Assembly: GCA_002127295.1 (NCBI GenBank)
Contig: NFUV01000002.1
Span: 1,116,001 to 1,180,000 of the forward strand
Length of the DNA stretch: 64,000 nucleotides
Direction of reading: 5' to 3'
Origin: Chitinophagaceae bacterium IBVUCB2
GTDB taxonomy: Bacteria; Bacteroidota; Bacteroidia; Chitinophagales; Chitinophagaceae
Positions within the stretch are counted from its first letter, which is position 1. Every line of letters begins with the position of its first letter. A program made the position numbers and the translations under genes. This document shows, in pieces, positions 15,642-58,294 of the stretch. Below the pieces are notes generated by a model. That model made no database searches. It saw only the letters and a program-made list of their open reading frames with translations, and was not told the origin of the DNA.

Positions 15642-18600
15642 ATGCAAAAAATCATATTTTTTTTAGGGTTATTGTTGTTAATAGCATTGCATAGCTTTAG
15701 CCAGCAAAATGAGTGGACATGGATGAAAGGGGATAATTCACCAACATTTGCAGATAGTGCAGCGGCAGTTTATGGTCCCTTAGGAATTCCAGGAAGTGGC
15801 TTTAGGCCTGGGGGAAGGCCTAATGCAACTATGTGGTCGGATGCCAGTGGAAATGTTTGGTTGTTTGGTGGAAGTGGAACTATAGATGGATCTAGTTATG
15901 GGAATTTAAACGATCTATGGAAATATAATCCTTCAACAAATGAATGGACTTGGGTAAAGGGAGACAATTTGCTTAATGTTTCAGGCATTTATAATAATTC
16001 AAATCTATTATTAAATAAACCCGGAGCAAGATATGGTGCTGTTGGATGGGTGGATGCTGCTGGCAATTTCTGGCTTTTTGGTGGTTATGGCATAGGTAGT
16101 ACAACCACTGAAGGTCGCTTAAATGATTTATGGAGATATACAATTTCTACTAATACATGGACTTTTATAAAAGGCGATGTTATACCCGAGGCTATAGGGG
16201 TGTATACAAATGCAAACTTACTGCTTGTTAAACCAGGGGGAAGGATAGGTGCCACAGGTTGGAGGGAAGGAGGAAGCCTTTGGTTATTTGGTGGTACCGG
16301 AAAAGCGAGTACAACCATTAATGGTTCACTTAATGATTTATGGAGATATACAATAGCAACTAATACCTGGACTTTTATAAAAGGAAATAATACGGTAGAA
16401 ACAGCAGGAGTATATACTGGAACAGCTTCATCACTTAAACCAGGAAGTAGATCTGGTGCGACAAGTTGGGTAGATGCTAGCGGGAAAGCATGGCTTTTCG
16501 GTGGCAGTGGAAATGCTGCTACAATAGCAAATGGAAATCTCAATGATTTATGGAGTTTTGATCCGATTACTTCGAATTGGACCTGGGTTAAAGGGGATAA
16601 TACAAGAAATAGGATTGGCATATATGGTACGATTACACAGCCTGATTTAACAAATAAACCTGGCTCAAGATCCTATGCAGTTGGATGGGCAGATTCCGCT
16701 GGGGATCTCTGGTTATTTGGAGGTAGCGGGTTAGGAAATAATTTTGGAGAAAGCGGGTGGTTAAATGATTTATGGAAGTATAATAAAGCAACAAATACAT
16801 GGACATGGATGAATGGATTTAATACTGCTGACGATTATGGCGTATATGGAACCCAGGGAATTGCTGGAAATAATGTTACCCCCGGTTCAAAATATTCTGC
16901 TGTTGCCTGTAAAGATGCGAGTGGTAATTTTTGGTTATATGGGGGCATTGGTTATGGTTATGCACCAGGATCCACTTTTGTATATTTAAACGAATTATGG
17001 AAGTTTAATCCTGTTGCTAATGAATGGACATGGGCTAGACATAATAATTTACAGGAGGCATTTTATACTTCTCGATACGGAATACAAGGAATAACTGACA
17101 TATTAAATAAACCGGGTGGTAGAAGTGGTGCCTCTAATTGGACGGATCTCAATGGAAGCTTTTGGTTATTTGGAGGATATGGCAGAGGGAGTAGGAATTA
17201 CGGAAATTTAAATGATTTATGGAAATATGCTCCTGCTACTAACAACTGGGTTTGGATGAAAGGAGATTCTACAATAGCACAGTTGGGTATATATGGACAA
17301 ATAGGGCAACCGGCTACATCCAACAAGCCGGGAAGCCGAAATAATGCACATACTTGGAAGGATAATAATGGAGACTTGTGGTTGTTCGGAGGTTTTGGAT
17401 TTGGAAATTCTGCTGAAGGAGTCTTAAGCGACTTATGGAAGTATTCGATTTCTAATAATATGTGGACATGGATGAAAGGTGATAGTTCAGTATACAATGC
17501 AGGCATTTATAATCAGTCTGCAGCTCAAAACAAACCGGGCGGACGTAATGGAGGAGTAACTTGGACAGATGCTACAGGAAATTTTTGGTTATTTGGTGGA
17601 TACGGATATGGAAGTAGTCCAGTTACAGATGGCCGTTTAAATGATCTATGGAAATACACCCCGGGTTCAAATGAATGGGTATTTATAAAGGGAAATGATA
17701 TTCCGAATTTGCCAGGGAATTATGGCACACAGGGTCTATCTAACTTAACCAATAACCCTGGGAGCCGAAACGGAGGAGTAGCATGGGTAGACGGGAATGG
17801 TGCATTCTGGTTGTTTGGAGGTGAAGGCTATTCATCTTCAAATTATGGGGAACTTAATGATCTCTGGAAATATAATCCCACTAATAATGAATGGGTATGG
17901 ATTAAGGGGAATAATATTGCTAATATAGAAGGTTCATATGGAACAATAAGTATTCCTTCAATCAATAATAAACCCGGAGCTCGAGCAGGTTCATCTTCTT
18001 GGGTTGATGCAAGTAATAATCTCTGGCTTCAAGGGGGATTTGGAAAAGCCTCTTCAAATTTTAGTTCTTCTGGTCAGCTGGATGATCTTTGGAAATACAA
18101 TATTCAAAATAATGTATGGACATGGATAAAAGGCAATGATTCACCGGGGAATAATGGCGAATATGGTAGTCAAGGTACTTCTAATCCTGCTAATAGGCCA
18201 GGTGGTAGGCATTATTCAGCATCATGGAAAAATACGGGAACTCAATTATGGTTGTTTGGTGGATATGGTTATGGAAGTAGCAGTCCGGAGACACAGCTTA
18301 ATGATCTGTGGAAATATGAATTACCGTGTTCGGGAGAAATTATACTAAGTCCGATATCAGGAATAATTTGTTTTGATGGTAACCCAGTTACGCTTACAGC
18401 AAGTGGTGGAGCAGCTCCATATACATGGTATAAAGATGGTGTTATAATTCCAGGACAATCTGGCCCAACCTATACTCCAACAACTATAGGCTCCTATTAT
18501 GTAAAAGGAAATGTAGGTACTTGTACAGATGTTTATTCTAATGAAGTTTTATTCCAATCACCTTCTGTTGAACCATCTCTTGGGGGTAATGGGGTATACT

Positions 18601-21600
18601 GCGAAGGTGCAAATGTAAATGTTGGAATACCTGATACAGAAGAAGATCAGGATTATACATGGGTAGGACCGGCTTCCTACTATGTTCCAATTGGCGGAGG
18701 CGGCGGAAATCAAAGTTTGAATTTTGCAATGGAAGCAAGTTATTCAGGTACTTATATTGTCCGATCTACAAAGCCCGGTTGCGATACTGTATATTCTAAC
18801 AATGTATCTGTTTATTACGGGGGAGTTACAGAGTTGGTAACAACATCAGTTTGTTCAAATCAAGTTTCTTTTAGCTGGAGAGATTACGGAAGTCCTGTTA
18901 AAAGATTTCAATATGCAGTAACTTTGTTTTCAAGTCCACCGGCTAGCGGAACCACAGAAACTTCCACATTTGGATCAGTAGGCGGATTGTTGTCTTCCAC
19001 AACCTATTACATACATGTACGTGGAGCTACCATTCCCGGCTTTGACATCAATTCTATAAGCTTTTGTAACGATTGGACTACTATTTCATTCACTACCCCA
19101 GCTACACCATCAATACCGACTTTAAGCCCCGTTTCGGCCACAGTTTGCCCGGGTAGTTCACAATTGTTAACTGCAACTGGTGGAAATACTTATGAATGGA
19201 CAAGAGATAATATTGTTATAAATGGGGTGACATCTCCAACTTATAATGCTACCATAGCGGGTACTTACCAGGTGAATGCATTTATTAATGGATGTACTCA
19301 GACCTCATTGCAGTCCAACACTTCCATAATAACCATTACTCCTGTAGCTACCAGCATAACTAATATTAGTGTTTGCAATAATCAACTTCCTTTTAATTGG
19401 AATGGAAATAATTATAATACCGCTGGCACATACAATCTAACCTTAACTACCCAAGCGGGTTGCGATTCTATCGCTACACTTAATCTTACTATCAAACCAA
19501 CATCCACCAGCATAACAAATACTGCTGTTTGTTCTAATCTATTGCCGTTTAATTGGAATGGCAATAACTATAGTACAGCAGGAACCTATAATGTAACATT
19601 GGTTGCGGCAAATGGCTGTGATTCCATTGCTACCTTAAATCTCTCCGTAAATGCCGCTTCAACCAGCATTACTAATATAAGTATTTGCAATAATCAGCTT
19701 CCCTATACTTGGAATGGAAATAATTATACTACGGGGGGGACGTATAATGTTACACTAACCGGGACAAATGGCTGCGATTCTATCGCCACTTTAAATCTTA
19801 GTGTAAGTGCCGTGCTGACAAGCACAACGAATGCAAGTGTATGTATCAATCAACTGCCCTATGTATGGAATGGGAATAACTACAATACAGCAGGCTTGTT
19901 CAATATAACATTAGTGAGCCAATCCGGTTGTGATTCGATTGCCACACTTAATCTTACGATAAATCCATTATTGACCAGTACAACTAATGCCGCTGTTTGT
20001 TCCAATCAATTACCGTACAGTTGGAACGGGAATAATTACAATTCCGGCGGAACTTATAACATCATTTTGTCAGGCTCAAACGGATGCGATTCAACTGCAA
20101 CACTTAACCTTACTGTTAATCAAACATCATCAAGTACTACCAATGTTGCTGTTTGTTCTAATCTGTTACCATATAGTTGGAATGGCAATAGCTATACTGT
20201 TGGCGGAACATATAATGTTACCTTAATCGGAGCAAATGGTTGCGATTCCGTTGCCACATTAAACCTGTCAGTAAATACTGCTTTAACAAGTACCACCACT
20301 GCAAGTATATGTACCAATCAGCTTCCCTATAGTTGGAATGGGAATAGCTATAATGCGGCAGGGATCTATAATGTTACCCTGGTAGCTGCAAATGGCTGCG
20401 ATTCGATTGCTACATTGAACCTTGCCGTTAGCACGGTACTAACCAGCACTACCAATGCCAGCGTCTGCGCTAACCAGCTTCCATTTATATGGAACGGAAA
20501 CAACTATAGTACAGCCGGAACTTTTAATATAACATTTGTAAGTCAATCCGGTTGCGACTCGATAGCCACTTTAAATCTTATTATAAAGCCTGTACTAACC
20601 AGTACAACAAATGCAAGTGTTTGTTCCAATCAATTGCCATTTAACTGGAATGGTAATAATTATACTGCCAGCGGAATATATAACATCACACTGCCAGGTT
20701 CAAATGGCTGCGATTCGATTGCCACACTTAATCTCACCATCAATCCAATTTCAACAAGTATAACAAATGCCTCTGTTTGTTCTAACCAACTTCCATATAG
20801 CTGGAATGGTACCAATTATACAAGTACAGGAACTTACAATATCACACTGCAAAGTACCAGCGGTTGTGACTCAATCGCTACCTTAAATCTTATTGTAAAG
20901 CCTGTTCAGACCAGCACTACTAATGTAAGTATATGCAGTAATCAGCTTCCATATAATTGGAATGGCAATAATTATAATTTGGCAGGAACTTATAATGTTA
21001 CGCTGGCTGGTTCAAATGGCTGCGACTCACTTGCCACCTTAAATCTTTCTATAGGTGCAGTGTTAACCAGTACTACCAATATTAATGTATGTGCTAATCA
21101 ATTGCCTTATAGTTGGAATGGGAATAGTTATAACGCTGCTGGCACTTTTAATGTAACATTAATAAGCCAGGCAGGATGTGACTCCATTGCTACATTAAAT
21201 CTTGGTGTAACACCTGTATTAACCAGTGTTACAAATATCAACAGATGTGCTAATCAATTACCATATAATTGGAATGGTAATAATTATACGGCAACAGGAA
21301 TTTATAATATTACGCTGGCAGGATCAAATGGCTGCGACTCGATAGCTTCTTTGAATCTTACTGTAAACCCTGTATTGACAAGTACTACTGCTGCAAGCAT
21401 CTGTTCAAACCAGGCACCTTATAGTTGGAATGGAAATAACTATACTGCTTCTGGAATTTATACTGTTACTCTTACCGGTTCTAACGGCTGTGATTCCATT
21501 GCCACTTTGAATTTGGAAATAAAACCAATACGAACCAGTAATAGCAATATTGAAGTTTGTACAAATCAATTGCCATACAGCTGGAATGGGAATAATTACA

Positions 21601-22835
21601 GTTCTGCTGGCTCATATAATGTTACACTAACTGGTTCTAATAGTTGTGATTCCATTGCGACATTAAATCTTACCATAAAATCGGTTTCAGCAAGCACCAC
21701 AAACATTAGTATATGCGCTAATCAATTACCATTTAGTTGGAACGGCAATAGTTATTCTGCTTCTGGTAGTTATAATGTTGTACTTACAGGTGCCAATGGT
21801 TGCGATTCAACTGCTACATTGATACTAGTTGCAAACTCCTTGCCTGTTGGGTCAATTAGTCCGGGTAATACTACAATTTGTGCTGGTGCATCTCAAGTAC
21901 TTACCATATCAGGAGGTGTTTCTTATCAATGGTTTTTGAACGGAAACCCGGTAAATGGTGCAATAGCAGATGTGTTGACCGTAACCACACAAGGAGCATA
22001 TAGTGTGCAAATTACTGCTGCCAATGGATGCAAAGCGATGGCTTCAAACACAGTAAATATTATAGTGATACAGAAGCCAACAGCAGCTTTTAGTTATTCT
22101 GCGCTTTGTCAAAATGAAACAACCATATTCACTAATACAAGTACAACAGGAAGCAGCGGGACTGTTAACTGGAACTGGAGTTTTGGTGATAATACTACTT
22201 CCTTTGTATTTGCACCGACACATGTTTATACACAGCCAGGCTCTTTTACCGCAGCATTAATTGCTACTCCGGCAGCATGTCCGCAATTAGCAGATACAAT
22301 TAAAAAAGTAATAACTGTAATAGCTGCTATTCCTGGAGTACGATATGACAATGTGAGAGTGTTAAAGAATACAGCTTATCCATTATCCTCCAGAAGTATT
22401 GGTGTGCAATATGTATGGCTTCCCGGTACATCACTAAATAATTCAACTATTCAAAACCCGATAGTTACTACTGCTGCTGACCGGCAATACCTGGTAAGAA
22501 TAAAAACAGCAGCTGGTTGCCTGGTAACAGATACGTTGCTAGTGCAGGCTTTTGATAAAGCAGATGTTTTTGTCCCGAAAGCTTTTACACCCAACAATAA
22601 TAATGCGAACGATAAATTAAGACCGTTAGGTGTAAGTATTGCTACAATTGATTATTTCAGGGTTTATAACAGGTGGGGGCAGCTGATGTATCAAACGCAG
22701 AATAGTGGTGAGGGCTGGGATGGTAATTATAAAAATATACCACAGCCTACCGAAACTTATACATGGGTGTTTGCAGGTAAAAGCCAGGATGGTACTTTAA
22801 TAAAAGCAAGTGGCAAAACAGTTCTTATACGTTAA
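15642..22835 (+). CDS. Giant T9SS-secreted surface protein: kelch-like propellers, Ig-like domains, 16 x 52-residue repeats, PKD, type B sorting domain
   Basis: 2397 residues. Signal peptide at 1-21 (ends FSQQ). Residues 22-895: twelve kelch-like units of about 70-75 residues, each starting NxWTWxKG and ending LWLFGGxG...LNDLWKY, enough for two six-bladed propellers. Residues 896-1236: Ig-like and fibronectin-like domains. Residues 1237-2068: sixteen exact-length 52-residue repeats with motifs NQLPYSWNGNNY and GCDSIATLNL and two cysteines each. Then an Ig-like unit, a PKD domain (WSFGDN near 2178) and, from about residue 2307, a gliding-motility-associated C-terminal domain (FVPKAFTPNNNNANDKL, VYNRWGQLMY), the type B T9SS sorting signal. 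Likely a cell-surface adhesin or scaffold; ligand unknown. The PorP/SprF gene follows immediately. Confidence 0.93.
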   Translation: MQKIIFFLGLLLLIALHSFSQQNEWTWMKGDNSPTFADSAAAVYGPLGIPGSGFRPGGRPNATMWSDASGNVWLFGGSGTIDGSSYGNLNDLWKYNPSTNEWTWVKGDNLLNVSGIYNNSNLLLNKPGARYGAVGWVDAAGNFWLFGGYGIGSTTTEGRLNDLWRYTISTNTWTFIKGDVIPEAIGVYTNANLLLVKPGGRIGATGWREGGSLWLFGGTGKASTTINGSLNDLWRYTIATNTWTFIKGNNTVETAGVYTGTASSLKPGSRSGATSWVDASGKAWLFGGSGNAATIANGNLNDLWSFDPITSNWTWVKGDNTRNRIGIYGTITQPDLTNKPGSRSYAVGWADSAGDLWLFGGSGLGNNFGESGWLNDLWKYNKATNTWTWMNGFNTADDYGVYGTQGIAGNNVTPGSKYSAVACKDASGNFWLYGGIGYGYAPGSTFVYLNELWKFNPVANEWTWARHNNLQEAFYTSRYGIQGITDILNKPGGRSGASNWTDLNGSFWLFGGYGRGSRNYGNLNDLWKYAPATNNWVWMKGDSTIAQLGIYGQIGQPATSNKPGSRNNAHTWKDNNGDLWLFGGFGFGNSAEGVLSDLWKYSISNNMWTWMKGDSSVYNAGIYNQSAAQNKPGGRNGGVTWTDATGNFWLFGGYGYGSSPVTDGRLNDLWKYTPGSNEWVFIKGNDIPNLPGNYGTQGLSNLTNNPGSRNGGVAWVDGNGAFWLFGGEGYSSSNYGELNDLWKYNPTNNEWVWIKGNNIANIEGSYGTISIPSINNKPGARAGSSSWVDASNNLWLQGGFGKASSNFSSSGQLDDLWKYNIQNNVWTWIKGNDSPGNNGEYGSQGTSNPANRPGGRHYSASWKNTGTQLWLFGGYGYGSSSPETQLNDLWKYELPCSGEIILSPISGIICFDGNPVTLTASGGAAPYTWYKDGVIIPGQSGPTYTPTTIGSYYVKGNVGTCTDVYSNEVLFQSPSVEPSLGGNGVYCEGANVNVGIPDTEEDQDYTWVGPASYYVPIGGGGGNQSLNFAMEASYSGTYIVRSTKPGCDTVYSNNVSVYYGGVTELVTTSVCSNQVSFSWRDYGSPVKRFQYAVTLFSSPPASGTTETSTFGSVGGLLSSTTYYIHVRGATIPGFDINSISFCNDWTTISFTTPATPSIPTLSPVSATVCPGSSQLLTATGGNTYEWTRDNIVINGVTSPTYNATIAGTYQVNAFINGCTQTSLQSNTSIITITPVATSITNISVCNNQLPFNWNGNNYNTAGTYNLTLTTQAGCDSIATLNLTIKPTSTSITNTAVCSNLLPFNWNGNNYSTAGTYNVTLVAANGCDSIATLNLSVNAASTSITNISICNNQLPYTWNGNNYTTGGTYNVTLTGTNGCDSIATLNLSVSAVLTSTTNASVCINQLPYVWNGNNYNTAGLFNITLVSQSGCDSIATLNLTINPLLTSTTNAAVCSNQLPYSWNGNNYNSGGTYNIILSGSNGCDSTATLNLTVNQTSSSTTNVAVCSNLLPYSWNGNSYTVGGTYNVTLIGANGCDSVATLNLSVNTALTSTTTASICTNQLPYSWNGNSYNAAGIYNVTLVAANGCDSIATLNLAVSTVLTSTTNASVCANQLPFIWNGNNYSTAGTFNITFVSQSGCDSIATLNLIIKPVLTSTTNASVCSNQLPFNWNGNNYTASGIYNITLPGSNGCDSIATLNLTINPISTSITNASVCSNQLPYSWNGTNYTSTGTYNITLQSTSGCDSIATLNLIVKPVQTSTTNVSICSNQLPYNWNGNNYNLAGTYNVTLAGSNGCDSLATLNLSIGAVLTSTTNINVCANQLPYSWNGNSYNAAGTFNVTLISQAGCDSIATLNLGVTPVLTSVTNINRCANQLPYNWNGNNYTATGIYNITLAGSNGCDSIASLNLTVNPVLTSTTAASICSNQAPYSWNGNNYTASGIYTVTLTGSNGCDSIATLNLEIKPIRTSNSNIEVCTNQLPYSWNGNNYSSAGSYNVTLTGSNSCDSIATLNLTIKSVSASTTNISICANQLPFSWNGNSYSASGSYNVVLTGANGCDSTATLILVANSLPVGSISPGNTTICAGASQVLTISGGVSYQWFLNGNPVNGAIADVLTVTTQGAYSVQITAANGCKAMASNTVNIIVIQKPTAAFSYSALCQNETTIFTNTSTTGSSGTVNWNWSFGDNTTSFVFAPTHVYTQPGSFTAALIATPAACPQLADTIKKVITVIAAIPGVRYDNVRVLKNTAYPLSSRSIGVQYVWLPGTSLNNSTIQNPIVTTAADRQYLVRIKTAAGCLVTDTLLVQAFDKADVFVPKAFTPNNNNANDKLRPLGVSIATIDYFRVYNRWGQLMYQTQNSGEGWDGNYKNIPQPTETYTWVFAGKSQDGTLIKASGKTVLIR
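15705..18329 (+). repeat. Twelve kelch-like repeat units (coding)
   Basis: Twelve tandem units of about 210-230 bases inside the giant surface-protein gene. Shared protein motifs are W(T/V)W(M/I/V)KG at the start, KPG(G/S)R in the middle, and WLFGG and LNDLWKY at the end. Nucleotide identity between units is incomplete, so they are old or under selection for divergence. Confidence 0.88.
19350..21845 (+). repeat. Sixteen tandem 156-base coding repeats (52 residues each)
   Basis: Unit k starts at 19350 + 156(k-1); all sixteen units keep exactly 52 codons with no indel. Invariant positions include Cys9, WNG around 17-19 and the CDS triplet at 38-40 (Cys38). Units at distance four resemble each other most (2/6, 3/7, 4/8, 5/9), indicating an older 624-base block duplication. 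Confidence 0.95.
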
Positions 22836-22839
22836 AACG

Positions 22840-23838
22840 ATGGCAATGAAAATTAGGATAACAATGATCTTTTTGTGTTGGATAGGTTTGGCGCAAGCAC
22901 AATCGCCACATTTTTCTCAATTCTATTCTTCACCACTATTGATAAACCCGGCATTTACCGGTTATACAGAAGGCGCATTTCGGGTGGCTGGTAATTACCG
23001 TTCTCAATGGGGAAGCGGTGGCTCCCCATACAGCACTACTTCATTGTCGGTAGAAGTAAGTCCATTGAGAGATAAACTGGCAGCGGGTAATAAATTAGGA
23101 TTTGGTATTGCTGCACTTAGTGATAAAACACTTGAAGGCGCTGTACAATTTAATTCTATCAGTTTCAGTACGGCATATAATCTATCTCTCGATCCTGATA
23201 ATGTTCACACTATCGGATTGGGATTACAGGGAGTATATAGTGAAAGAAGAATAAATTTTAATAAACTCAACTTTGAAAACCAGTTGACCAGCGGTGGCTT
23301 TGATATTTCTTTACCAATAGGAGAAGAGTTGCCCGGTGGCAATAGAAACTATTTTGATATGAGTACAGGAGCCGCCTATCATGCATCATTACCCGATAAA
23401 TCTTTCTTTGCAGGTGTCAGCGTATACAATCTTTTAAAGAAAAAAGATGTTTATAACGATCCTCAATTTCAATTACCAAAAAGATACACCGCTGTTGCTG
23501 GGGGAAATATAGATGTAGGATATAGTGGAATTTTTTACTTTTCACTAAATTACCAGCAACAGGGTAGCACCAATGAAACAACATTGGGTTCTGCATATGG
23601 AATTCAGTTAGGTGATCAAAAGAAGAATATTATAAGTCTCGGCGCCTGGTACCGGGTAAATGATGCTGTGATACCTTATATAGGTTATCAACTCGAAGGT
23701 TTTCAAACCGGTTTTAGTTTTGACTATACTACTTCTAAATTAAAAACCGGAGGGCAAACAAGAAATGGTTTTGAGATCAGCATGGTGTATACCGCACCAG
23801 ATAATTCTGAAATGAAGAGACTGGTTCCATGGTATTAA
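22840..23838 (+). CDS. PorP/SprF family type IX secretion system membrane protein
   Basis: About 332 residues from the ATG at 22840. The start has a signal peptide (MIFLCWIGLAQAQ) followed by the family hallmark SPHFSQFYSSPLLINPAFTG, then GNYRSQWG and a series of beta strands consistent with an outer-membrane barrel. PorP/SprF proteins work with T9SS cargos carrying type B C-terminal domains and are often encoded directly downstream, as SprF is for SprB. Here the gap to the giant protein is only four bases. A start at 22810 would overlap that gene and spoil the signal peptide, so I reject it. Confidence 0.93.
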   Translation: MAMKIRITMIFLCWIGLAQAQSPHFSQFYSSPLLINPAFTGYTEGAFRVAGNYRSQWGSGGSPYSTTSLSVEVSPLRDKLAAGNKLGFGIAALSDKTLEGAVQFNSISFSTAYNLSLDPDNVHTIGLGLQGVYSERRINFNKLNFENQLTSGGFDISLPIGEELPGGNRNYFDMSTGAAYHASLPDKSFFAGVSVYNLLKKKDVYNDPQFQLPKRYTAVAGGNIDVGYSGIFYFSLNYQQQGSTNETTLGSAYGIQLGDQKKNIISLGAWYRVNDAVIPYIGYQLEGFQTGFSFDYTTSKLKTGGQTRNGFEISMVYTAPDNSEMKRLVPWY

Positions 23839-52185: not shown

Positions 52186-52815
52186 TTATTTTTTCAATAC
52201 AAAGACACTGATATTCGTCTTTCCATTTTCCATTTCCACTTCTATTTCTGTTTGTTCTTTGCAAAACACTAAGATCTGTTGAATAAAATCTTTTGCCATT
52301 AAGCGCTGGGGTGTGCTTAAAATTATACAACATCCGTTTGACAGCAGATAGTTAACTGCTAACAGCAACTCCTCAAATTGAGCTGGATTATAATTGATAT
52401 CACTAAGTAATACAATTTCGGGTATTGGAACTTGTATAAGGTTATTCCAATCGAGAATACTGCATTCAGTATTTTTTAATTGATGATGAGTAATTGTTTG
52501 CTGGATCATTGCTACCGCTTCAGCTTCAATATCACTGATGCAAACCTGTTTAGCATACGTAGCACAAAAAATGCCTGGCAATCCCGGGCCAGCAGCCAGT
52601 TCTAATACTTTTTTATCTTCAATATATGAAAGGTTGTTGTGCAGGAATGTACAAAGGCCTATTGCAGCCGGCCAAACCTTGGCCCAATATAAAAAACCGG
52701 CACCTTTATTTTCTTTCTTGTATTGAGCTACTAATGAGACTGGGTCAGGTACAAAAATTTCTAAAGGCGTGGTGCCTATGTAATATGTTTTTAGAATAGT
52801 GGGATAAAATATCAA
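52186..52815 (-). CDS. Class I SAM-dependent methyltransferase (METTL16/lysine methyltransferase-like)
   Basis: A 209-residue protein. It starts with a TTG codon at 52815; no ATG fits upstream of the conserved region. GFLYWAKVWPAAIGLCTFL followed by KVLELAAGPGLPGIFCATYAKQV (SAM-binding motif I) and IVLLSDINYNPAQFEELL match the family of methyltransferases related to eukaryotic METTL21-type protein lysine methyltransferases and to bacterial nicotinamide-like enzymes. The target, protein or small molecule, cannot be predicted. Confidence 0.75.
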   Translation of the reverse strand: MIFYPTILKTYYIGTTPLEIFVPDPVSLVAQYKKENKGAGFLYWAKVWPAAIGLCTFLHNNLSYIEDKKVLELAAGPGLPGIFCATYAKQVCISDIEAEAVAMIQQTITHHQLKNTECSILDWNNLIQVPIPEIVLLSDINYNPAQFEELLLAVNYLLSNGCCIILSTPQRLMAKDFIQQILVFCKEQTEIEVEMENGKTNISVFVLKK

Positions 52816-52937: not shown

Positions 52938-53867
52938 CTAGCTTAAAGTCTTCGTAACCTGGCCAATCATGTATCCATTATGATAAATCTGTAAAGTATA
53001 ATTGCCTTTTTCATATTCCGGGGCATTCAATGAAAAGATCAGACGTTTGGCTTCTCCTTTCAGATATTCAAATCTAACTTTTCTTGTAAAATTCATTTTA
53101 CTGCCATTGTGCAATAGCATCAGGGAACTTGCCTCCCATACGTCATCGTTTTTCAATAACTTACCATTTGGCTGTATAATCATTACATAGACATCAGCAT
53201 TTTTATATTCGTTTACATTATTCTGAACTGCGAATGAAACTATCATCTTACTTGTTTTTTTTGCAAGATTAGTTTCCTGTTCTTTATCGTTTTTAACAGT
53301 CACAGGAGAAAACTTTATTTCAGATGCTACAAACACAGAAGCCAGGTTTACTTTTTCAGTAAGGTTCTTATTTTCTTCACTCAGTTTTTTGATCGACTGT
53401 TGTAGTCCAACGACTTCTCCGGATAGTTGAGACATTACATCACTCAGCCTTTGTTTTTCTTGTTCCATAGAGTCTTTCTGGCCTTTCAATTCATCTACCA
53501 TTTGTTGTAGCTCCGTTATTTTTTCTCTTGCAATTGAAAGATCTGCAGCAGATGCTCCCCGCTTTTTTAATATACCATCAATCTCATTCTTAAGGGTGTA
53601 AATTTCATTTAGTTTAGAACCGAGCTGGTTCTTTAATGAGTCGGCATTGCTGCGGGTAGAATCAAGCCGTGTATCCAATGTAGTAATGGTGGCATAGTAA
53701 ATTTTCTGTAATGAATCTTGTATGCCCTGGGCAACGGCAGTCGAGTCTTTAATAAAAATCTCTTTAACCCGGCTACTATATTGTGTTTTATCGTATAAAT
53801 GATATACCCATGTACCCACAAGGCCAGTAGAAAGCAATACTAATAGTAAGGTTTTAATATCTTTCAT
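52938..53867 (-). CDS. Membrane-anchored coiled-coil protein (paralogue of the gene at 55272)
   Basis: A 309-residue protein. A single N-terminal helix (LLLVLLSTGLVGTWVYHLYDK, residues 7-27) anchors it, followed by a long coiled coil to about residue 175 (LNEIYTLKNEIDGIL, LQQMVDELKGQKDSME, LQQSIKKLSEENKNL). The C-terminal 130 residues form a beta-rich domain with ASVFVASEIKFSPV and the ending GNYTLQIYHNGYMIGQVTK. The same start (GTWxYxLxDK) and end (GNYxxxIYHNG) occur in the protein at 55272, so they are paralogues. It lies 66 bases downstream of the ASKHA-like gene; function unknown. Confidence 0.72.
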   Translation of the reverse strand: MKDIKTLLLVLLSTGLVGTWVYHLYDKTQYSSRVKEIFIKDSTAVAQGIQDSLQKIYYATITTLDTRLDSTRSNADSLKNQLGSKLNEIYTLKNEIDGILKKRGASAADLSIAREKITELQQMVDELKGQKDSMEQEKQRLSDVMSQLSGEVVGLQQSIKKLSEENKNLTEKVNLASVFVASEIKFSPVTVKNDKEQETNLAKKTSKMIVSFAVQNNVNEYKNADVYVMIIQPNGKLLKNDDVWEASSLMLLHNGSKMNFTRKVRFEYLKGEAKRLIFSLNAPEYEKGNYTLQIYHNGYMIGQVTKTLS

Positions 53868-53933
53868 TACCTCAATCTAATTGTATTTGATAAATGAAGC
53901 TGTAAAAAGAGTCCACATTATGGAAAACAGAGT

Positions 53934-55097
53934 TTATTTTAAAATGCTGTCATCTACATAAGCAGATACCCAGCCTACCTGGCCATTTTTTACGAGAAAA
54001 AATTGTTTTGTTTCAAAAGCTGATTCAAACTGGCGCATAATTTTTAGTAAAAGCCCGGTGCCTGCCATCAGTGATTTTTGATCAAATACCTGGTGTACTC
54101 TTTTGGCCTCTTTTTGTATTAATTCTTTTTCTTCGGCTATGCTCGCAGTGGCAGATAAAAAAGAAGGAGAAAGCGAGTTGTAGTTTTTATATAATTTTTC
54201 TGCAAATTTTTCTACTTCACTAAAACTCACAGATACTACCGGGTTTTCAATCAGGTCTGGATGTAACAATGTTGCCACGGCCCAGGCAATACCCCCACTA
54301 ATAGCAATATTATCACTAAGCGGAAAGGCGCCACTGGAATTTACTGCATACACTATTTCAGAATTTTCAGCACTCCAGAGAACCCTTGTTAATTGCTTAT
54401 TATAATTGGCAAGAGTTTTATCTTCAGCACATCTTTTTTCGGTTTCATTATTGGTACTTTTAGTACCCCAGTTTAGCTGAAAAAGTTTGAAATTTTTCTT
54501 GTTTCCATCCGGGAAAAAACCGCCCTTTGTATTACCACTTCCAATATCCACTAAAAATGTTGTGTAGCGCCTGCTTTCAGGTACTATACCCAAGTGGGAA
54601 AGCATAGCTTCTTTCATTACATCCACAACTTCTACTTTACGTCCCGGCTCTTTTATTTTTACCCGAAAGGAATCGATCAGTTCATTGATCCAGGCGGTTT
54701 TTTCTTCTTTTTCTGCCTGCATTTTAACACCGCTGCTTATAACTGTAAAAATGCGATTAGCTGGTATTTTGTAATCTTTAGTGGCTGTTATAAAAAGATC
54801 GTAAAAGCCGTTTAGTGTAGCACTAAAAGTGGGTCTTGAAAAACTGATGAAGTCGGTATTAATCGTTGTGTCTTTTAAAATATAAAAAGCTCCGCTGCTT
54901 TGTGCATTTTTTCCAATTTCAATTACACTCATCTTAACTCCTTTGGAGCCCACTTCTATTCCTGTATAGGTGTTGTTATTGATTTTTGACTTAATGCTAT
55001 TCTGTGCAAAAAGTATCGGGGTAGTTGCAAAGCATAAAAAAGTAACAATCAGAATACGGGCGGAAGGGGATGATAACATTCGGTTATTTATTTTCAC
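53934..55097 (-). CDS. Exported protein with ASKHA (Ppx/GppA-, actin/Hsp70-like) nucleotide-binding motifs
   Basis: 387 residues from a GTG at 55097, or 381 from the ATG at 55079. A signal peptide (ILIVTFLCFATTPILFAQ) implies export. Two glycine-rich loops follow: YTGIEVGSKGVKMSVIEIG just after it, like phosphate-1 of the ASKHA fold, and FLVDIGSGNTKGGFFP near residue 187, like phosphate-2 (compare DIGGGSTE in Ppx/GppA). A later ISGGIAWAVATLL resembles the adenosine/connect region. Together these suggest an actin/Hsp70/exopolyphosphatase-type fold, but in the periplasm, where ATP is absent. It is flanked by two paralogous coiled-coil membrane proteins. Binding activity and role are unproven. 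Confidence 0.65.
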   Translation of the reverse strand: MKINNRMLSSPSARILIVTFLCFATTPILFAQNSIKSKINNNTYTGIEVGSKGVKMSVIEIGKNAQSSGAFYILKDTTINTDFISFSRPTFSATLNGFYDLFITATKDYKIPANRIFTVISSGVKMQAEKEEKTAWINELIDSFRVKIKEPGRKVEVVDVMKEAMLSHLGIVPESRRYTTFLVDIGSGNTKGGFFPDGNKKNFKLFQLNWGTKSTNNETEKRCAEDKTLANYNKQLTRVLWSAENSEIVYAVNSSGAFPLSDNIAISGGIAWAVATLLHPDLIENPVVSVSFSEVEKFAEKLYKNYNSLSPSFLSATASIAEEKELIQKEAKRVHQVFDQKSLMAGTGLLLKIMRQFESAFETKQFFLVKNGQVGWVSAYVDDSILK

Positions 55098-55140
55098 TGA
55101 TAAAATTACTCTAATGTAGGGCAGCTTTATCCTTTTCTAT

Positions 55141-55154
55141 TTGCTTTAAAGCAA
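55141..55154. promoter_or_regulatory. Perfect 14-base palindrome upstream of the ASKHA-like gene
   Basis: TTGCTTTAAAGCAA is a perfect inverted repeat in the 174-base gap between the ASKHA-like gene and the coiled-coil gene at 55272, on the promoter side of the former. It could be an operator; it could also arise by chance in AT-rich DNA. Confidence 0.3.
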
Positions 55155-55211
55155 TATGTGTAAAAGTTGTGCTTAAGTCCGAAGGGCATATAATTTCAGT
55201 AGAGTGTAGGC

Positions 55212-55249
55212 AAAAAAAAGCCGCTCCCGAATGAGAAACGGGAACGACT
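55212..55249 (-). terminator. Rho-independent terminator after the coiled-coil gene at 55272
   Basis: An 11-base-pair stem (55219-55229 with 55239-55249, two G-T wobbles), GC-rich, nine-base loop; on the minus strand it is followed by eight T. It separates this gene's transcript from the ASKHA-like gene downstream. Confidence 0.88.
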
Positions 55250-55271
55250 TTCTTGCAGGAGTTAACTGCTT

Positions 55272-56246
55272 TTAACCGAATAAACCACCTTTTTTAAGAC
55301 TTCTTACACCTTCGCCAATTTTGAAGCCATTATGATAAATTTCAATTTTATAGTTACCAGTAGTAAAATCATTTTGCTGAATAGGGAACTGTATTGGTTT
55401 ACGGGTTCCTTGCTCATAATTTACAGGAATCTTTGCTGTAAAGCTTTTATCACCATCTGTACGGGTATTTAAAACATTACCACTTTCAGATATTACTTTA
55501 CCATCAGGAGCAGTAACGATCAGGTACATGTCAGCCGGACCAGATTTAGCAATACGGTTTTCTACATCAAAAGAAACTACAAGTTTGTCTACTTTTTTTG
55601 CGCTGGTTGTACTCTTTTCTTTACCACTCTTCTTCTCATTAACCGGAGTTACCTGGATATTAGAAGCACTGAAAGTAGAAGCTACATCAACAGTTTTTTC
55701 CAAATCTTCTTTTTCTGTTTTTGTAGTGGTAAGATTAGTTTCCAGATCAGCTTTTTCCTGCGTCAATGTAGTGTTAGCAACATTGAGCTCCTGATTTTCA
55801 CCAGTGAGTCTTGTAACTTCTGCTTCAAGACTACCAATTTGGTCATTCAGTTGAGCTATCATTGTTCTTGCTTTAGCTAACTGAGACTGAGTTGCATTTT
55901 TATCATTCAGGATCTTGCGAATTTCAGCTTTGCGGGCATCAATGTCTTTTTGTAAAGCACTTTTTTCTCCTTGTAAGGAATTATTAGCACCAGTAATTGA
56001 ATCCAATCTTATTTCAGCCTCGTCGTACATGGCTCTGATAGAGTCACGCTGAGACATGTAAGAGATAGAATTCGTTTGTTCTTTTTTCAATTCTTCACCT
56101 GCTTTGTTTTTGTCCCAAAGAAGGTAACCCCAGGTTCCAAGCAGGCCAGCTGCTAATAAACCTATCATAAGATTTTTAGTGTTGTTGTTTTTCACCGGCC
56201 TGTTGTTCTGTGGAGCACTAGCCGAAGGATAATTAGTGTCTGTCAT
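55272..56246 (-). CDS. Membrane-anchored coiled-coil protein (paralogue of the gene at 52938)
   Basis: A 324-residue protein. A short polar N-terminus is followed by one helix (KNLMIGLLAAGLLGTWGYLLWDK, about 24-46), a coiled coil to about residue 195 (heptads such as LNDQIGSLEAEVTRLTGENQEL) and a beta-rich C-terminal domain with KVDKLVVSFDVENRI and GNYKIEIYHNGFKIGEGVR. Domain order matches the gene at 52938. The coiled-coil and C-terminal parts should face the periplasm if the helix is a signal anchor. It has its own terminator. Confidence 0.72.
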   Translation of the reverse strand: MTDTNYPSASAPQNNRPVKNNNTKNLMIGLLAAGLLGTWGYLLWDKNKAGEELKKEQTNSISYMSQRDSIRAMYDEAEIRLDSITGANNSLQGEKSALQKDIDARKAEIRKILNDKNATQSQLAKARTMIAQLNDQIGSLEAEVTRLTGENQELNVANTTLTQEKADLETNLTTTKTEKEDLEKTVDVASTFSASNIQVTPVNEKKSGKEKSTTSAKKVDKLVVSFDVENRIAKSGPADMYLIVTAPDGKVISESGNVLNTRTDGDKSFTAKIPVNYEQGTRKPIQFPIQQNDFTTGNYKIEIYHNGFKIGEGVRSLKKGGLFG

Positions 56247-56452: not shown

Positions 56453-57451
56453 ATGAGTGTGGAAAAGATAATAGCAGATTGGAAAAAAGGAAACTTCAAA
56501 CCCATTTATTGGTTAGAAGGCGAAGAAGATTTTTATATAGATAAAGTGATAAACTATGCCGAGCAGCATATTTTAACCGAAAGTGAATCTTCTTTTAACC
56601 TTTCTGTATTTTATGGAAAGGATGCCAACTGGGCCGATGTAGTAAATGCATGCCGTCGGTATCCCATGTTTGCAGAGCGGCAGGTGGTGCTGCTAAAGGA
56701 AGCGCAACAGATGAGGGATATAGAGAAGCTGGAATCTTATGTTGAAAATCCACTTGCATCAACAGTACTCGTTATTTCGTATAAAGAGAAAAAGCTGGAT
56801 GCCCGCAAAAAATTCACAAAGCTTGTAAAAGATAACGGCGTTCTTCTGAGTACAAAAAAAATGTATGATAGTCAGTTGCCAGAGTGGACACAGGGATTGT
56901 TACAGCAAAAAGGATTTACCATTACTCAAAAAGGGCTGGCACTATTGGTTGATCATATAGGTAACGACCTTTCAAGAATAGAAAACGAAATCGATAAGCT
57001 ATCTGTAAATCTTGGTAAGAGAACCACTATTACAGAAGACGATATTGAACAATACATTGGTGTAAGCAAAGACTATAATGTATTTGAATTGCAATCGGCA
57101 TTAGCTTCAAAGGATCTGGCAAGAAGTATTCAAATTATTCAATATTTTGAGGCTAACCCGAAAGCGGCACCTATTCAATTGATATTGCCGTCACTCTACA
57201 GTTTTTTTAGTAAAGTATTTATGATTTTTGGCGCAGGAGGGGGAGATGAAAAATCCATTGCTGCCAATATTGGGGTGAATCCTTATTTCATGAAGGATTA
57301 TACCAAAGCGGCCCGTTTATATACTTATCCCGGTGTAGAAAAAGCATTGATACTATTACATACTTACAATCTTAAGAGCATAGGTATTGGAAGCACTGGT
57401 ACAGAAGATGCTTCCTTATTAAAAGAAATGGTAGTGAAAATGATGGCTTAA
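56453..57451 (+). CDS. holA: DNA polymerase III subunit delta
   Basis: A 332-residue protein whose start MSVEKIIADWKKGNFKPIYWLEGEEDFYIDKVINY is the typical HolA N-terminus. The central FAERQVVLLKEAQQM and LVISYKEKKLDARKKF, and the C-terminal YNVFELQSALASKDLARSIQIIQYF with PIQLILPSLYSFFSKVFM, correspond to the three domains of the clamp-loader delta subunit, which opens the beta ring. Length is as expected. A lipoprotein gene follows in the same direction. Confidence 0.92.
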   Translation: MSVEKIIADWKKGNFKPIYWLEGEEDFYIDKVINYAEQHILTESESSFNLSVFYGKDANWADVVNACRRYPMFAERQVVLLKEAQQMRDIEKLESYVENPLASTVLVISYKEKKLDARKKFTKLVKDNGVLLSTKKMYDSQLPEWTQGLLQQKGFTITQKGLALLVDHIGNDLSRIENEIDKLSVNLGKRTTITEDDIEQYIGVSKDYNVFELQSALASKDLARSIQIIQYFEANPKAAPIQLILPSLYSFFSKVFMIFGAGGGDEKSIAANIGVNPYFMKDYTKAARLYTYPGVEKALILLHTYNLKSIGIGSTGTEDASLLKEMVVKMMA

Positions 57452-57538
57452 TTGTTGGGTAACTATCCGCTCAAAATCCTTTTCTTTGTGCAACTTTTTA
57501 AAACAGGCCATCATCTTTTTGGCCATCAAACAATCATA

Positions 57539-58294
57539 ATGAAAAAATTATTCTTTCCGGCAATCCTTTTAACAGCGATAATGCTTACCGGTTGTTATGA
57601 ATCAACCCAGGAAATTACGTTGAATGAAGATGGAAGTGGCACCATTTCTAATACGAATGATATGAGTGCTTTAATTGCAGTAGCCAAACAAATGGGAGGG
57701 GCAGAAAAAATGGCCGAAGCTGGCGACCAAAAGATAGATTCTACTTTTTCTTTGGGAAAGGAAGCGGATAGCATTCTGGGACTTAGTAATTCTGAAAGGG
57801 AGCTTGCCCGTAAGGGAACCGCCAATATTACCCTTAACCTGAAGGATGAAAAGTTTAGTACCAAATTGAATTTCCCTTTTGCTAAACCTTCAGAGATCGC
57901 TACGTTAAATATGCTATCCGGAAAGATTCTCGCCTCTACCATGAAAGACCAAATGGGCGGCATGCCGGGTGGTGGAGCAGGAGAAATGCCGGAACCAACT
58001 TCCCTTGATGACTATTATACCGTTGAGTTTTCCAATGGTGAGCTAACAAAAAAAGTAAATAAAGAAAAGTATGCTGGTGCCGCCAACGATAAATTCCTGG
58101 AGGGATTAAAAGAAGCTGCAACCATGGGCCTTAATATGAAAGTAAATTATGTAATTAACCTGCCTCGCCCAGCTACAAAGGCAGAAGGAAAATCAGTTAA
58201 ACTGTCTGACGATAAAAAGAAGGTAACAATTTCAGCAGGCATCGATGATTTTTTTGAGGATGCTTCAGTGCTGGAGTTTAAAATAAAGTATTAA
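57539..58294 (+). CDS. Predicted lipoprotein, unknown function
   Basis: About 251 residues from the ATG at 57539. The signal peptide ends in the lipobox LTGC (about residue 18), giving a lipid-anchored mature protein starting CYESTQEITLNEDGSG. The rest alternates charged helices and strands (GTANITLNLKDEKFSTKLNF) and contains a Gly/Met/Pro-rich patch (DQMGGMPGGGAGEMPEP). It may be outer-membrane or periplasmic. No family recognised. A start at 57452 would place the lipobox far from the N-terminus and is rejected. A terminator follows. Confidence 0.7.
   Translation: MKKLFFPAILLTAIMLTGCYESTQEITLNEDGSGTISNTNDMSALIAVAKQMGGAEKMAEAGDQKIDSTFSLGKEADSILGLSNSERELARKGTANITLNLKDEKFSTKLNFPFAKPSEIATLNMLSGKILASTMKDQMGGMPGGGAGEMPEPTSLDDYYTVEFSNGELTKKVNKEKYAGAANDKFLEGLKEAATMGLNMKVNYVINLPRPATKAEGKSVKLSDDKKKVTISAGIDDFFEDASVLEFKIKY

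Follow-up and report, generated by a model that had tools for sequence, protein, structure and literature searches.

An exported Ppx/GppA relative and a mostly co-inherited coiled-coil protein in Chitinophagaceae

Organization of the locus

The window analyzed here is a stretch of 64,000 nucleotides of Chitinophagaceae bacterium IBVUCB2 (GenBank assembly GCA_002127295.1, contig NFUV01000002.1, forward-strand positions 1,116,001 to 1,180,000), from a genome of 4.0 Mb in three contigs. It carries three neighboring open reading frames (ORFs), all on the minus strand and at the coordinates given in an earlier note on this DNA: CC1 (55272..56246), A (53934..55097) and CC2 (52938..53867). A encodes a 387-amino-acid exported relative of the ASKHA family Ppx/GppA. 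CC1 combines an N-terminal candidate transmembrane (TM) anchor with a long helical or coiled-coil region and a C-terminal beta-sandwich, and its faster-diverging paralogue CC2 has a candidate TM segment, a coiled coil and a C-terminal beta domain. The earlier note had proposed an exported ASKHA-type protein beside paralogous membrane coiled coils, and this was borne out: the protein falls in the Ppx/GppA branch and the association is real. The locus thus encodes an exported Ppx/GppA relative that lacks one defining active-site residue and has a mostly co-inherited coiled-coil partner.

CC2 lies 66 bp downstream of A. A stem-loop followed by a T run after CC1 (55221..55241, minus strand) resembles an intrinsic terminator; none of 200 shuffled sequences was equally stable (-27 kcal/mol, z -5.66), and the pattern of stem-loop plus T run occurs at 3 sites in the scan versus 2.9 expected by chance, which makes the pattern alone weak. 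The hairpin would have CC1 transcribed apart, and suggests A and CC2 as the likelier transcription unit. A promoter scan remained at chance level (13 sites versus 13.5 expected).

A is an exported relative of Ppx/GppA

The signal peptide region of A (55002..55097, minus strand; residues 1–32, ending TTPILFAQ) was predicted by hydrophobicity only: the N-terminal stretch scores 1.96 (Kyte-Doolittle, 19 residues) and ends in FAQ, in agreement with the signal peptide claimed in the earlier note, and no further segment exceeds 1.6. The GTG start may lie six codons too far upstream; a likely alternative is the in-frame ATG at 55079, which would give a more typical signal peptide. Among titled contigs, the closest relatives are two metagenome-assembled genomes (MAGs), one from Bacteroidia (88% identity in A) and one from Chitinophagaceae (70%).

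Kinship of A with Ppx/GppA (PF02541; exopolyphosphatase and pppGpp phosphohydrolase, ASKHA fold) is well supported, on the basis of bridging homologues, profile-profile comparison and a low-confidence structure model. The bridging homologue L012 matches the Ppx/GppA profile with 57.5 bits (cut-off 27). The two glycine-rich loops likened in the earlier note to phosphate-1 and phosphate-2 do align with those of Bacteroidota Ppx, at 96–98% profile probability in hhalign, and the motifs follow the Ppx/GppA order of phosphate-1, catalytic Glu, phosphate-2 and GSGG. The model of A was predicted from an alignment of six rows and has a mean predicted local distance difference test score (pLDDT) of 48.8, which is low confidence; 22 of its 23 best structural rows are Ppx/GppA, and nucleoside triphosphate diphosphohydrolases (NTPDases, apyrases) rank just after them. 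The duplicated ASKHA core anticipated in the earlier note was thus not found missing, but the structural evidence for it is weak at this pLDDT.

A lacks the profile match of the NTPDases: GDA1_CD39 was matched neither by A (Pfam, E up to 5) nor by eight homologues (E up to 1). Likewise, A had no Pfam match to Actin, MreB or Hsp70 at E up to 5 and no PADLOC match at E up to 0.01, and L012 matched the MreB profile weakly (E 0.0031; 16.6 bits, cut-off 365.75). The matches from a single-sequence PDB search of A were at chance level (best E 0.47) and were discarded. Many NTPDases and apyrases are secreted or extracellular. An ASKHA fold outside the cytoplasm, which the earlier note had implied to be odd, therefore already exists in the ecto-NTPDases.

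The active site of A is conserved and rewired

Residues of A were mapped onto the Ppx of the same genome (L078) and then, by conserved spacing, onto D. radiodurans PPX (DrPPX) as described in PMC11234463. Conservation was scored in 49 distinct complete proteins from 54 loci, with duplicates and cut ORFs dropped and with numbering that includes Met1. The phosphate-1 loop GIEVGSKGVKMS (54927..54962, minus strand) is the counterpart of DIGSN in Ppx, with Asp replaced by Glu and Asn by Lys. Glu163 (54609..54611, minus strand; Glu162 without Met1) corresponds to the catalytic Glu114 of DrPPX. The phosphate-2 loop DIGSGNTKGG (54519..54548, minus strand) carries Lys191 (54525-54527) in place of the last Glu of GGGSTE in Ppx, and an SGG motif (54291..54299, minus strand), preceded by an insert that distinguishes A from Ppx/GppA, is the counterpart of GSGG.

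Glu163, Asp184, Lys191, Lys125, Lys52 and Lys55 are invariant in all 49 proteins, and Glu48 is present in 48. By alignment and residue spacing, the catalytic Glu (E114 of DrPPX) and the phosphate-2 Asp (D136) are kept in 49/49, and the last Glu of GGGSTE (E143) is Lys in 49/49. In A, the Mg-binding Asp is Glu and the Arg contacting the catalytic Glu is Lys. By residue number, the differences from Ppx/GppA include R88, replaced by Lys, and R239/R249, which are not kept. Invariant positions account for 37 of 65 residues within hand-set windows around the Ppx motifs versus 42 of 282 elsewhere in the core. The structural ranges pair model residue 177 with chain residue 130 of 8jgp and residue 178 with residue 131 of 6pc0, which, assuming no gap among the first residues, places Lys190 (numbered without Met1) on residue 143.

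According to PMC11234463, E114 is the catalytic and E143 the water-positioning Glu of DrPPX, and kcat/Km falls from 2.28 to 0.04 in E143A and, similarly, to 0.05 in E114A. According to the title of a PDB entry, an E143A variant of H. pylori PPX/GppA was crystallized with ppGpp. Because the last GGGSTE Glu is missing, we class A as a Ppx/GppA relative and not as a Ppx/GppA enzyme. Judged by its residues, A is not a standard exopolyphosphatase, though its site is strongly conserved. A site that is conserved but rewired would fit, and be compatible with, retained ligand binding together with slow or absent hydrolysis.

We tentatively favor, at somewhat less than even confidence, a reading in which A is a periplasmic, Ppx-derived switch that binds a phosphate ligand, or a very slow phosphohydrolase, coupled to the inner-membrane coiled coil CC2. 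The main rival, possible though rather unlikely in our judgment, holds that A is enzymatically active in the periplasm as a polyphosphatase, pyrophosphatase or other phosphohydrolase such as a nucleotidase, for example in phosphate scavenging, with Lys replacing Glu and the coiled coils serving only as tethers. A does retain the catalytic Glu, the phosphate-2 Asp and an acidic phosphate-1 residue, and the NTPDases, next after Ppx structurally, are precedents for a fold of this type functioning extracytoplasmically. However, the water-holding Glu, present in 25/25 unexported Ppx, is gone from all 32 exported relatives (Lys in 31, Leu in T_L153), and its replacement by Ala costs DrPPX most of its efficiency (PMC11234463). 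Moreover, of the two Ppx-conserved arginines, R249 is kept in 0/31 and R239 in 1/31 (A_L047) of the aligned exported rows, in a part where the alignment is uncertain.

That the ASKHA fold of A has instead degenerated and now serves solely as a scaffold for binding proteins, with no phosphate ligand, strikes us as improbable. The active-site substitutions relative to Ppx would agree with such a scaffold, as would the association with coiled-coil genes and the TPR repeats of some relatives. Nevertheless, the phosphate loops and the catalytic Glu rank with the best-conserved parts of A, unlike those of an abandoned site, and this strict conservation argues against degeneration in its simple form.

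BcrAD_BadFG proteins also have a Lys at the end of the phosphate-2 loop; the comparison with A was dropped after none of 14 relatives matched the BcrAD_BadFG profile above its cut-off.

An exported branch of Ppx relatives

The exported relatives comprise four types: A, TPR-bearing proteins, flavobacterial single-domain proteins, and short anchored or lipoprotein-like proteins. Across all four the phosphate-2 loop ends in TK, the exceptions being SK in A_L047 and Leu for Lys in T_L153. In a 15-residue hydrophobicity scan of the first 70 residues, all 32 exported relatives had an N-terminal stretch of at least 1.55 and the maximum among the 25 unexported Ppx was 1.51, so that the groups are separated only narrowly at the edge. 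A 56-row tree, from which T_L153 was left out for want of a motif match, placed the unexported Ppx in one group (support 100) and the flavobacterial L012 at the base of the Ppx branch; the deep exported branches were poorly supported. One of the 26 loci L085–L110 (L094) yielded no ORF.

The TPR-bearing exported relatives from Bacteroidota resemble A in sequence (30% identity for G000:C1:479606-480625), in their export-type signal and in the motif DVGSGNTKGG. They differ from A in their N-terminal TPR repeats, and no match to a coiled-coil gene was found in the 1.5-kb flanks of L007–L011. The membrane-anchored relatives in L147 and L154 share with A the motif DIGSGNTK, the catalytic Glu, an N-terminal hydrophobic anchor and coiled-coil-like neighbors, but have no R88-equivalent residue and a shorter second half. 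They are only distantly related to A: the match to A in the genome that carries L147 (G417) has E 2.6e-6. In L147 (6459-12124) the neighbors of the anchored ASKHA relative include kinase-, PP2C- and VWA-domain genes as well as one whose product has a coiled-coil-like C-terminus, and L154 (7330-10315) has a similar anchored type with coiled-coil-like neighbors. These two loci hint at a recurring theme of an anchored ASKHA relative with coiled-coil neighbors. These operons may be akin to TerY-type systems, on which a literature search gave nothing relevant. Among the matches listed for the neighbors of the TPR-bearing, flavobacterial and anchored relatives, no family was common to most loci.

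Two related genes lie elsewhere in the genome of the window, outside the window itself. One (G000:C1:479606-480625, L007), a paralogue of A, is a second exported Ppx relative with N-terminal TPR repeats and DVGSGNTKGG; the other (G000:C2:1196640-1197377, L078) is an ordinary unexported Ppx, with an overlapping upstream gene that by eye resembles a polyphosphate kinase.

Ppx/GppA enzymes are internal housekeepers of polyphosphate and (p)ppGpp. PMC11234463 likewise describes Ppx in this role, and a search of the openly licensed PMC literature, judged by title and start of abstract, found no exported Ppx described in print.

Paralogous coiled-coil proteins CC1 and CC2

CC1 and CC2 begin with GTWGYLLWDK and GTWVYHLYDK and end with GNYKIEIYHNG and GNYTLQIYHNG, respectively, and match each other at E about 1e-39. 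They are therefore paralogues with shared ends, as the earlier note had recognized. Each has one candidate TM segment (Kyte-Doolittle, 19 residues; 1.64 in CC1 and a weaker 1.58 in CC2). The CC1 model (pLDDT 73.7, predicted template-modeling score 0.42) consists of helices in residues 21-187 and strands in 191-317. Among PDB rows it matches GH3 beta-glucosidases best (E 4e-6), with a TM-score of only about 0.26 of the query, and the GH3 part matched is presumably an FnIII-like domain. Pfam and NCBIfam matches of CC1 and CC2 (SMC, laminin, filament and similar) were below cut-offs and were discarded, together with their PADLOC matches, as coiled-coil background.

In a tree of 98 coiled-coil proteins, a long branch with support of 100 parts CC2 from CC1. 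The tree omitted incomplete, identical and short (<250 amino acids) ORFs, as well as the second coiled-coil genes of several A-negative genomes whose loci were unfetched. The CC2 side holds 39 rows, 34 from A-bearing genomes or loci and five from genomes without A (G242, G321, G200, G391 and G395); placement of the G252/G395 pair is weakly supported (68). Tandem coiled-coil pairs also occur in genomes that lack A (L197, L198, L199, L200, L201, L205, L206 and L208), with both copies on the CC1 side, which implies that CC1 was duplicated more than once. CC2 probably arose beside CC1 through tandem duplication and was then recruited to A.

Co-inheritance of A with CC2

Within the genus of the window, A is present in 21 of 42 genomes and CC2 in the same 21; of the 21 genomes without A, 12 carry a single CC1-like gene and nine carry none. 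The earlier note held that A neighbors the coiled-coil genes, and A and CC2 do lie side by side, at most 0.6 kb apart, in all 21 A genomes. In 19 of these, CC1 flanks A on its other side within one contig, and in G717 and G730 it lies at the edge of another contig.

Across the wider family we surveyed 244 genomes, with a threshold of E 1e-8 for coiled-coil genes. Some match to A was found in 50, of which 37 carry A proper (36 at E <1e-100 and a contig-edge fragment in G286). A is thus patchy (37/244), whereas CC1-like genes are near-universal (230/244). At least two coiled-coil genes occur in 33/37 genomes with A versus 29/207 without it, and the extra genes in those 29 are, as far as fetched, mostly duplicates of the CC1 kind and not CC2.

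The position of A between two coiled-coil genes, described in the earlier note, holds at the window locus and not always elsewhere: among 29 family loci (L019–L047), 15 show a coiled-coil gene in the fetched flank of A (about 1.5 kb) and 14, including the contig-cut L022, do not. For these 14 loci, CC1 and CC2 form a tandem elsewhere in nine genomes, are about 7 kb apart in two and lie on separate contigs in one; of the rest, G328 is truncated at a contig end and G214 has no coiled-coil gene. The gene order is therefore not fixed as once claimed, since several genomes have A elsewhere while CC1 and CC2 adjoin. A, CC1 and CC2 travel together in no fixed order, and this linkage is well supported.

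A possible phosphate-ligand switch at the inner membrane

In the favored reading, A would be a periplasmic protein with the Ppx/GppA (ASKHA) fold. It would bind and retain a ligand rich in phosphate, which may be polyphosphate, pyrophosphate or some nucleotide able to reach the periplasm, and would hydrolyze it very slowly or not at all. Ligand-dependent closure of its cleft would be read by the head and coiled coil of CC2 at the inner membrane, CC1 being the older, general family member and CC2 a diverged duplicate mostly co-inherited with A. That A contacts CC2, and either signals through it or is held by it, is the most economical account we can offer. A stricter version, in which the periplasmic ASKHA domain cleaves neither ATP nor polyphosphate, opens and closes on its ligand and relays its state to a duplicated inner-membrane coiled-coil receptor dedicated to it, seems to us unlikely; if true, the Ppx fold would here have been turned into a sensor in the cell envelope that responds to polyphosphate, pyrophosphate or leaked nucleotides.

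Several observations weigh against the favored reading. The Lys that ends the phosphate-2 loop does not prove inactivity. A by itself has no significant match in Pfam, NCBIfam or the single-sequence PDB search, its model is poor, and phosphate-1 lies at the edge of or outside the structurally aligned ranges. At least three A genomes lack CC2 (G214, with no coiled-coil gene, and G220 and G313, with one each), and five A-negative genomes have it, among them G200 and G321, which are 99% complete. In G385 (L024), A lies between the coiled-coil genes on the opposite strand, so A and CC2 are not always one transcript. Genomes within one genus are not independent. Moreover, all 21 genus genomes with A are at least 2.6 Mb, and of the 21 that lack it 17 measure 1.5-2.1 Mb; since presence tracks genome size, genome reduction alone could remove both A and CC2. 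Among the 25 genus genomes of at least 2.6 Mb, 21 have both genes and four have neither.

The genomes without CC2, the size-dependent joint absence in the genus and the 14 family loci without an adjacent coiled-coil gene would also be expected if A, CC1 and CC2 were functionally unrelated and neighbors by chance. So would the A-less congener L224, in which CC1 is directly followed by a TonB receptor gene: this adjacency indicates that A, CC2 and a third gene, the methyltransferase gene downstream of CC2 in the window, are all missing there. We nevertheless consider chance very improbable in view of the genus co-occurrence (21/21 versus 0/21), the persistence of CC2 in 12 of the 14 genomes with non-adjacent A, and the enrichment of A genomes in coiled-coil genes across the family (33/37 versus 29/207).

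To return to the phosphate-ligand reading, some Bacteroidota export a rewired Ppx relative and usually retain it along with an additional membrane-anchored coiled-coil protein, which suggests an unstudied cell-envelope device. With its consistent active-site swap and its link, through gene presence, to a membrane coiled coil, the exported branch suggests that the envelope of Bacteroidota has a phosphate-ligand function not described so far.

Neighboring genes and other features of the window

On one side of CC1, A and CC2 lies the divergent gene for DNA polymerase III delta (56453-57451), and on the other a small gene for a methyltransferase (52186-52815). The delta gene is in the same locus as a CC1-like gene in 41 of 52 loci checked. 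The methyltransferase gene, downstream of CC2, belongs to Methyltransf_16 (Pfam) and is seen by eye in L001 too, and not in L002 or L224. A 280-amino-acid ORF at 57452-58294 has no Pfam match at E up to 5 and reads as a putative lipoprotein, with an LTGC box identified by eye from an internal ATG; a relative of it follows the delta gene in 8 of the 52 loci, whose flanks are short. Farther away, the window encodes a 2397-amino-acid protein with a type IX secretion system (T9SS) type B sorting domain (15642-22835), followed by a PorP/SprF-family gene (22810-23838).

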